Below, in pieces: positions 5,452-6,904 of a DNA stretch of 6,904 nucleotides. Location of the stretch: positions 1 to 6,904 of the forward strand of contig JAUSNQ010000116.1 in assembly GCA_030655595.1 (NCBI GenBank), read 5' to 3'. Position numbers and translations under genes: made by a program. Position 1 is the stretch's first letter, and every line of letters starts with the position of its first letter. Below the pieces are notes generated by a model that worked only from the letters and a program-made list of their open reading frames with translations, had not been told where the DNA came from and did no database searches. This DNA comes from Paludibacter sp. (lineage in GTDB: Bacteria; Bacteroidota; Bacteroidia; Bacteroidales; Paludibacteraceae).

Positions 5452-5480
5452 GAGAGGGCACCCTTTACGGATGCCCTCTC
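5452..5480 (-). terminator. GC-rich hairpin, probable 3' end of the large noncoding RNA
   Basis: A perfect 9-bp inverted repeat (5452-5460 with 5472-5480, GAGAGGGCA / TGCCCTCTC) flanks an 11-nt loop. It lies at the end of the noncoding stretch and before the nnr promoter, where a terminator is expected. No U-tract follows on the minus strand (GCTATTTAC), so it is not a textbook intrinsic terminator. It could instead be a 3'-protecting or processing stem, or a leaky terminator that lets transcription continue into nnr. Confidence 0.55.
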
Positions 5481-6344
5481 TGAACACAAATGTTTATGCT
5501 GTATCTTTTAATACTGAATATATCTTATTGAGTTATTGATTCTTATTGGTTTGATAAACCGGTTATTCACCAGCCTATCCGCTGTTCTTCCTGTTTTGGA
5601 AACTCATTTCTGTCTGATTCACCTGTTGGACTTTTGTAACAGAGTAATTAAAACTATTCTGAACGCTTGTCGCATTGGTATACCCGATAAATCGGGAGAG
5701 GTTACACCAAATGGTTTTGGACTATTTGCATAATTCAAATTGGCATTACCCTTCATTCGGATTGTTTTTCCATTTTGGTCGGACAACTGAACCCTTAGGA
5801 CTCATTTCACTCTCGTCAACTGTTTAGCCTATTCTTCCTCTTGGTGTAGAGGGTGATGCTGGCAAATCGGGCAAACTTTCCTTTGCAATTGCTTGCTCCG
5901 GAGTCGTCTTACGGTGTTACCCGTTCGACTGAAATTTCCCTGAATACCTAACGCCGTGACTATAATTTTTTTGTGCTGCATCGCCTGGAATTGAAGGTCG
6001 TGATTTCGAAAACTTTGCAGTTTTCAGTTACGCTACCCGGAACGCATGAAAGCGACGAATCACCTCCGATTGTATTCCCATTCCTGACTACCCGGCTTCC
6101 CTGTCTGCTATAGACAAGCTGCGTTTTATTCAAACGCCCAATAGATTTTGAGTCTGACACAAAAAAAGAACTATCTTTCGACAAACCGCTTAAACCATGC
6201 ACTTTGCAAATCACTCCACCATTCACTTGCGCTCACGGTTAAAAGATGATCGTTCATTACAGGCCTTCAGCTCTCTGCACAAAACACGCATTCAATTTTC
6301 ACATCCGGTGTTCAGTTTCAACTTATGACTTTTAGATTGATCAG

Positions 6345-6357
6345 TATTTCAAAGAAC
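6345..6357 (-). promoter_or_regulatory. boxA-like antitermination element (NusB/NusE type)
   Basis: The minus strand reads GTTCTTTGAAATA, which fits the general boxA consensus GYTCTTTRANA at every position. It lies about 40 nt downstream of the predicted transcription start, as in rRNA leaders. In bacteria boxA recruits NusB-NusE to prevent premature, notably Rho-dependent, termination of long untranslated transcripts. Its presence supports the downstream stretch being a functional untranslated RNA. Confidence 0.6.
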
Positions 6358-6399
6358 GTTCAACATATTCATTTATGTTTTGAGCCGAAACTCATGGTG

Positions 6400-6432
6400 C
6401 AAATATATATCAGTAAACATATATGCTCCAAA
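6400..6432 (-). promoter_or_regulatory. Strong Bacteroidota-type promoter for the noncoding RNA
   Basis: On the minus strand TTTG (6429-6432) is followed by 21 bp and a perfect TAnnTTTG, TATATTTG (6400-6407). Spacing equals that of the nnr promoter. The sequence upstream (about 6433-6570) is AT-rich, as in UP-element-like regions of stable-RNA promoters. Predicted transcription start is about 6393-6395, next to a small hairpin (TGAG-TTTCGG-CTCA, 6381-6394). Confidence 0.7.
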
Positions 6433-6904
6433 TTTTTTGACCTGTATATATCAACAACTTTTAAACACAAGTTATAAACAGGTTAAATGATTGATAATCA
6501 AATACGCGTTTTCAGAATTGTTGATAAGTGCAATTAAAGAAAGTTTATTGTATAACCTTTAGACTAACAAACAGAAACCTTTGTCGTTTGAGATTTGAAG
6601 TCAGACACATCTTATCTCCGGCTTGTCAATGCTGAACGATGTACATCGTCCGATCAAAACGTAATTCATCGTCAGGATAAAACGATGTATATCGTTCAGT
6701 ACCTGCTATTGGAAGTATGGATACTGCGACATGATAACAAGCAAACCGACAGCATTTCAGTATACGACCGGGTTCACCAAAGGCGTGGCTGTACGTGGAA
6801 GGTATTAATGACCGGTCCGATATGCGCTCCTCCCCTGATAACCACATTGGCTTCTTCCATTTTTCGCCGGAAAGAAGCTAAGGGTGTAAACTGCAATTCA
6901 ATTT
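6433..6904. other. Stretch without a recognisable gene
   Basis: About 470 bases upstream of the noncoding RNA promoter. The part at 6433-6600 is AT-rich, with a partial inverted repeat (CCTGT...AACTT at 6441-6460 against AAGTT...ACAGG at 6470-6482) and no coding signal. The part at 6621-6712 holds the 23-bp-period array listed separately. At 6774-6902 the minus strand has an open frame entering from the right edge, 42 codons including RRKMEEANVVIRGGAHIGPV, which could be the degraded end of a gene. An overlapping frame (6626-6847) is also open, and I recognise neither. Confidence 0.5.
6621..6712. repeat. 23-bp-period repeat array with palindromic cores, possible multi-site operator
   Basis: The 14-bp perfect palindrome ACGATGTACATCGT lies at 6636-6649. 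A near copy, AACGATGTATATCGT (6681-6695), matches 6635-6649 at 14 of 15 bases exactly 46 bp away, which is two 23-bp periods. Between them, at the 23-bp register, sits a half-site TTCATCGTC (6665-6673). CATCGTC-5nt-AAAACG recurs at 6644 and 6667. The spaced palindromes suggest cooperative binding of a dimeric regulator. The array lies about 200 bp upstream of the noncoding RNA promoter; the regulated gene is unknown. Confidence 0.55.

Follow-up and report, generated by a model that had tools for sequence, protein, structure and literature searches.

The window analyzed here, a stretch of 6,904 nucleotides of Paludibacter DNA, has on its minus strand a region of about 943 nt (5452-6394), in which the original prediction had seen a large structured noncoding RNA with its own promoter, a boxA and a 3' hairpin, yet no credible protein. 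To our knowledge, bacterial noncoding RNAs this large outside the ribosome are few, and the roles of most of them are open. The locus raises the questions of whether the region specifies a conserved RNA, whether such an RNA is a version of a known class, and how it might be made. Its homologs, a fold that predicts pairing in copies outside the training set, and the lack of any Rfam match all support the structured RNA reading. We consider it likely that the region is a member of an autonomous, very large structured noncoding RNA family of Paludibacter-like bacteria, which would be made and tied off in the manner of an rRNA precursor.

Landmarks, coding potential and distribution

The proposed outer boundaries, 5452 and 6394, coincide with conserved landmarks, and the promoter, boxA and 3' hairpin could each be located on the minus strand. 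The promoter (6400-6432) is comprised of TTTG (6432-6429) and TATATTTG (6407-6400), and is of the Bacteroidota type; TATATTTG is invariant in all 25 aligned leaders, and a promoter of the form TAnnTTTG is common to all 25 full copies. Transcription would start near 6394, at a first hairpin, TGAGTTTCGGCTCA (6381-6394), two pairs of which are exchanged together in G161 (CAAG..CTTG); a 5' hairpin is likewise common to the full copies. This is followed by the 5' strand of a closing helix, P1 (6333-6380), which includes the boxA-like GTTCTTTGAAATACTGA (6341-6357) with a core, TCTTTGAA, that is invariant in 25/25 leaders. The GCAA-capped stem noticed earlier lies at 6218-6239 and is retained with changed pairs in relatives. 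Beyond it is a conserved core (5973-6139) with hairpins at 6137-6121, 6118-6100, 6065-6050 (with a UUCG loop) and 6025-6008, and the motif AAGCCGGGTAGTC at 6098-6086. The 3' strand of P1 (5482-5526) precedes a terminator-type hairpin, AGAGAGGGCATCC...GGGTGCCCTCTC (5452-5481), and such a hairpin ends all 25 full copies; its T tract is weak in the window and better in some relatives, such as G161. A generic sigma-70/terminator scanner, which has no model for the Bacteroidota promoter type, reported neither promoter nor terminator for the window RNA.

The absence of a credible protein was borne out: the longest stop-free run in the window is 90 codons, which 31 of 60 shuffles equal or exceed. Six of eight copies examined have stop-free runs no different from those of shuffles; open stretches of 132 codons in G037 and 135 codons in G161 were matched in length by 0/60 and 3/60 shuffles, respectively. 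By the rule used, eight of the 25 copies, including that of the window, have no overlapping ORF of 70 codons. None of the 75 ATG frames of at least 40 codons in 17 long-type copies is common to more than seven of them in place and frame, and the most widely shared are antisense. Five pairs of long-form sequences differ by 96 indels, 94 of which have lengths not divisible by three, and their substitutions are evenly spread over the three phases.

Relatives were reached via the neighboring enzyme, whose best matches are mostly in metagenome-assembled genomes named Paludibacter or Bacteroidales. DNA searches matched 6 of 13 genomes, five of them genuinely, a 29-nt match in G009 being dropped for its length only, and recovered the RNA in 18 of 200 genomes. 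Within one family (Paludibacter and its kin), the 1.4-kb G004 copy matched 29 of 358 genomes when used as query. After inspection of the matches, 26 of these 358 genomes carry the RNA besides the window, the matches in G315, G123 and G077 having been dropped upon reading. A covariance model of the leader detected 30 of the 358 genomes at E<=0.01. The 25 strong matches (E<=1e-11) are the DNA-search set without G177, where the 5' part is a run of N. The weak ones comprise a 16S rRNA operon leader in G152, an apparent chance match in G029, and a different leader-like sequence in G300, G301 and G287. The latter sequence, similar to GATCTTTGAAATACTGATATAATAACTAAAT in G300 (L206), G287 (L207) and G301 (L209) and with the version CTCTTTGACATACTG in G315 (L159), resembles the boxA leader and lies near genes that by eye resemble those for secreted or surface proteins.

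In wider samples, the leader model found only the known carrier G004 in a sample of 393 genomes of the order, and G004 along with G941 among 395 of the class, the match in G941 being a coding region; stricter filters were applied to both samples, so weak distant members could be missed. No match to the RNA was found in phage and plasmid collections with two queries, or in viral contigs with two exact-pattern scans. One locus per genome was found. The 25 full copies come from 24 genomes and the window (G182, at a contig edge, and G177, with its run of N, are left out of all full-length counts) and are mostly about 1.4 kb long, with extremes of about 650 nt in G203 and 1720 nt in G356; the window copy is hence a short form.

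A conserved fold closed from end to end

The minus strand of the window folds at -269.4 kcal/mol, as against -232.1 +/- 7.6 for 20 dinucleotide shuffles (z -4.9), and the plus strand scores z -4.3 in the same test; folding of a single sequence thus barely separates the strands. Alignments were more discriminating. The first 486 columns in 20 sequences gave -117.7 versus -53.8 +/- 5.4 in 30 column shuffles (z -11.9; opposite strand -10.2), with the window group of four alone at z -3.4 (opposite strand -3.0), while the last 965 columns in 12 long-form sequences gave -244.7 versus -92.9 +/- 6.2 in 16 shuffles (z -24.6; opposite strand -14.6, also with 16 shuffles). In both the 486- and the 965-column alignment the scores favor, as the RNA, the strand that is minus in the window. 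The 5'-domain alignment leaves out G186, G203, G037, G113 and G064, which by eye are too divergent there, and the 965-column alignment leaves out G356, G186, G084, G138, G101, the window group, G203, G037, G113 and G064. When all 25 copies are aligned over their full length (mean identity 58%), the consensus fold is weak, at -36.5 kcal/mol with a few hairpins, which we attribute to misalignment; this alignment was too poor to be used for structure.

In the core, 95.9% of 665 cells are paired across 20 sequences (19 distinct), as opposed to 30-47% for slid pairings, and 15 of 35 pairs show changes on both sides versus 4.8 +/- 1.5 in 500 shuffles. As this structure derives from the same alignment, prediction out of sample is the cleaner test. 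When the fold of 13 long-form copies is placed on the four window-type copies, pairing is seen in 436 of 559 cells (78%; slid 31-46%) and in 64 of the 84 doubly changed cells (76%; slid 29-48%); for the window alone the values are 113/141 (80%; slid 34-46%) and 13/18 (72%; slid 21-56%). With the training reversed, from the window group to the 13 long-form copies, 1188 of 1674 cells (71%; slid 34-40%) and 169 of 267 doubly changed cells (slid 30-53%) are paired. For G084, G138 and G101 the prediction holds for 315 of 418 cells (slid 33-43%), but at 42/81 the doubly changed cells do no better than the best slid control (22/42, 52%). A full-length fold trained on 12 copies pairs 293 of 410 cells in G356, 270 of 384 in G186 and 799 of 1217 (slid 36-40%) in G084, G138 and G101; in the 3' part of the last three, 77 of 161 doubly changed cells are paired (48%), versus 30-44% when slid. 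In a home-made G-test with a phylogeny-preserving null, none of all possible pairs reached E<=0.1 and one of 133 structural pairs had E<0.05; we read this as low power with few clades, and neither this outcome nor the weak full-length consensus counts in favor of the fold. Of the compensatory changes expected in homologs, their presence and their predictive value out of sample stood, but the stringent all-pairs test did not reach significance.

The ends of the RNA are joined by P1, in which the 5' leader, including the boxA, pairs with the 3' tail ahead of the terminator-type hairpin. The duplex of each of the 25 copies with its own tail ranges from -23.8 to -35.7 kcal/mol (mean -29.6), whereas shuffled tails give -11.4 +/- 3.1 and those taken from other clades -21.7; the own duplex beats every other-clade tail in 14 copies but not in the other 11. 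In a two-strand alignment of the 25 sequences, 684 of 809 cells of the 33 inter-strand pairs are paired (85%, versus 36-42% slid), and 9 of the 33 pairs show changes on both sides (3-7 slid). The helix was derived from the alignment that scored it, and it exceeds the slid controls chiefly in pairing and to a lesser degree in double changes. The unconstrained fold of the window RNA contains P1 as well, as does the consensus folded without constraints from 12 long-form copies.

Genomic setting and a proposed ribosomal RNA-like mode of production

In the window the RNA is followed on the same strand by a gene for an NAD(P)H-hydrate repair enzyme (YjeF_N + Carb_kinase) and, further downstream, by those for an outer-membrane efflux protein, an HlyD-type protein and two ABC ATPases. 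Between genomes the neighbors of the RNA vary, and those downstream differ in kind and strand. When 88 flanking proteins were gathered, at most four from each genome, no group was shared more widely than an RNA (uracil-5)-methyltransferase-like gene, which is seen in six genomes, four of which form one clade in the tree of the neighboring enzyme, with the other two absent from it. A Pfam scan of 40 of the 88 assigned families to 37, which are diverse and mostly ordinary chromosomal-looking genes, with no phage structural genes among them; a PHROGs scan of 10 flanking proteins gave four matches, none of them structural. The G001 copy (L104, on a 3.7-kb contig) has transposase pieces as both upstream ORFs and DUF4372, which we take to be a transposase-linked domain, downstream. 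Its sister G091 has a hydrolase upstream of the RNA instead, and we therefore read the setting in G001 as a local insertion. Several palindromes of the CGATGTACATCG type are closely spaced at about 6630-6700 of the window, upstream of its RNA, and similar palindromes are also seen upstream of the G073 copy (L110).

The tree of the neighboring enzyme, with a midpoint root for drawing only, holds 22 of the 27 carriers (G101, G138, G203 and G360 lacked a match and G177 had a fragment) and 11 of 30 non-carriers searched. The 22 carriers, including the window, and four non-carriers form one group (94/62), within which window-type and G037-type copies have their own supported clades, and carrier and non-carrier labels require five changes on the tree. 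In the four non-carriers, G003, G007, G008 and G014, even a sensitive search for the leader returned nothing below E 0.15, which implies that the RNA is dispensable at least somewhere, unless assembly gaps are responsible. This distribution fits vertical inheritance with losses.

The leader also resembles those of ribosomal RNA operons. The 16S operon leader of G152, matched weakly by the RNA leader model (E 0.0097), has TTTGCA and GATCTTTGAAAGACTG, and both 16S operon leaders of G037 have TTTGCA and GTTCTTTAGA; a 16S gene was found in one of six carriers for this comparison. The RNA thus resembles an rRNA-type unit in its boxA-type leader, by sequence likeness only, and in its leader-trailer helix, which is a likeness in the mode of working rather than membership in the class. 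In Escherichia coli, boxA forms an antitermination complex, and the formation of active 30S requires the leader-trailer helix (excerpts of PMC10250234). By analogy, the RNA may be transcribed and closed by the logic of an rRNA precursor, and among the steps that we propose such rRNA-like biogenesis would be the best supported. The boxA would probably recruit NusB/S10, enabling RNA polymerase to cross the untranslated kilobase without Rho termination. P1 could, somewhat more tentatively, be cut by RNase III by the same analogy, leaving a compact body. As for that body, the chances appear about even that it would serve as a scaffold or ribonucleoprotein instead of base-pairing with targets.

Upstream of the promoter lies a further conserved block (6441-6480, minus strand) with motifs similar to DnaA boxes. 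With up to one mismatch, TTATCCACA/TTATCAACA motifs occur 86 times within 200 nt upstream in the 25 sequences versus 4.9 expected from shuffles, with at least two in each and three in the window; the chromosome background is about 1.1 per kb. Judged from their sequence, they are candidate DnaA boxes that might bind DnaA. The upstream block is the densest 250-nt window in 189 kb of G073:C28, ties with two others for the densest in about 600 kb of samples from G037, and lies outside the six densest windows in G004:C35. We considered the RNA locus as a replication origin and rejected it on account of the skew in these three. In G037 the third-position skew changes sign near 2.0-2.1 Mb and again near 0.35-0.5 Mb; at the RNA (2.623 Mb) it is positive, and in a single 20-kb sample there it falls to about zero without flipping; no flip occurs at the RNA in the long contigs G004:C35 or G073:C28. 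By the sign of the skew the RNA is on the presumed leading strand in G037, G073 and, weakly, G004. The region of G037:C1 where skew places the origin (2.00-2.16 Mb) has at most three such motifs per 250 nt, versus four upstream of the RNA. That the motifs tie expression of the RNA to DnaA is possible, if rather doubtful. We regard as speculative the fuller picture of a DnaA-timed giant RNA, in which DnaA boxes would control the promoter, boxA would provide antitermination and the leader-trailer helix would release a kilobase-sized, non-ribosomal ribonucleoprotein via the ribosome assembly line.

Alternative explanations and comparison with known systems

When the whole window was compared with 4227 Rfam families, seven matches had E values of 5 or lower, all of them outside the RNA region; at 17 loci with relatives, two matches had E values of 1 or lower, both of them off the RNA. 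A DUF805 RNA (RF03081, E 1.1e-10) is seen at 2249-2318 of L124, shortly downstream of the G002 copy. As the original prediction had it, no sign of RNase P RNA, tmRNA, SRP RNA, rRNA or a group II intron emerged from these scans. The RNase P, SSU and LSU rRNA and group II intron models match the RNA neither in the window nor at the 17 loci, and neither ARAGORN nor Rfam found a tRNA or tmRNA in the window. Ordinary RNase P RNA is present elsewhere in seven of eight carriers tested, G203 being without. OLE, GOLLD, ROOL, raiA and HEARO likewise went unmatched among the 4227 families, HEARO presumably also having an Rfam profile. Profiles of GOLLD, ROOL and OLE exist in Rfam and one for raiA was built separately (excerpts of PMC12286853). 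No description of the RNA was recognized among the matches listed from the open-license literature, and the portions of PMC11109978 and PMC2864571 covered by a term search do not name Paludibacter. The RNA is hence, as predicted from sequence, a conserved and very large family that has no Rfam match and was not recognized in the open-license literature reached. Of the outcomes that would have contradicted it (a match to a protein, a known RNA or a decayed element) none appeared.

Large RNAs diverge fast, and this, along with the comparable scale and ornate look, would be in line with a divergent OLE, GOLLD, ROOL, raiA, HEARO or group II intron that escaped the covariance models; with the RNA unmatched in Rfam even at thresholds of E<=5 for the window and E<=1 for the 17 loci, and no shared ORF within the copies, such an origin is quite unlikely. 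A long antisense or sponge RNA that base-pairs with mRNAs or small RNAs might account for some conserved A-rich stretches that are unpaired in the consensus, but conservation is largely of helices with exchanged pairs and the body varies from about 650 to 1720 nt, making this function unlikely.

The DnaA-box-like cluster upstream in 25/25 sequences, together with its density in G073:C28 and in the G037 samples, could instead point to a chromosomal DNA element, either an origin or a DnaA-titrating site, with incidental transcription. Yet conservation of the fold is biased toward the RNA strand, the skew speaks against an origin in all three genomes, though not against a titrating role, and the G004:C35 block is not among the densest, leaving this decidedly improbable. 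We also find it very improbable that the locus is a relic of a decayed gene or dying mobile element: variable length, patchy presence and the G001 copy between transposase-type genes would agree with decay, but the promoter and boxA core are retained in 25/25, as are P1 and the terminator-type hairpin, exchanged pairs are conserved, no coding signature is apparent, and the copies occur at one locus per genome, group by host tree and are unmatched in phages, plasmids or, for two exact patterns, viral contigs. The same-strand gene downstream in the window brings to mind a cis-acting leader or riboswitch, which is hardly credible for an RNA that has its own terminator-type hairpin and whose downstream genes vary in kind and strand.

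The autonomous structured RNA thus favored would add to the large RNAs a Bacteroidota family, mostly of about 1.4 kb, with 25 full copies and a predicted multi-domain fold, and raises the question of whether the antitermination and processing machinery of rRNA is used for another RNA. With its candidate DnaA boxes the locus is reminiscent of datA and DARS, which are clusters of DnaA boxes away from the origin; the cluster described here differs in lying at the promoter of a conserved predicted RNA, and DnaA would be its presumptive ligand. GOLLD and ROOL frequently have a phage or prophage setting, whereas phage and plasmid collections, two exact patterns in viral contigs, and the flanking proteins scanned (40 of 88 with Pfam, 10 with PHROGs) revealed none for the present family. 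It shares with OLE, GOLLD and ROOL the character of long, intricate and apparently noncoding RNAs (excerpts of PMC12286853), and differs from them in having no Rfam match, Bacteroidota hosts, no phage match found, and an rRNA-type boxA leader with an end-to-end helix; OLE is moreover about 600 nt according to abstracts, versus mostly about 1.4 kb here. The closest parallel is with pre-16S and pre-23S rRNA, where a boxA likewise lies near the start and a long leader-trailer helix encloses a folded body (excerpts of PMC10250234). In the E. coli pre-16S the helix strand follows the boxA (same excerpts), whereas here the boxA is inside P1, the enclosed body is not rRNA, and the whole is a unit of one RNA with its own terminator-type hairpin.
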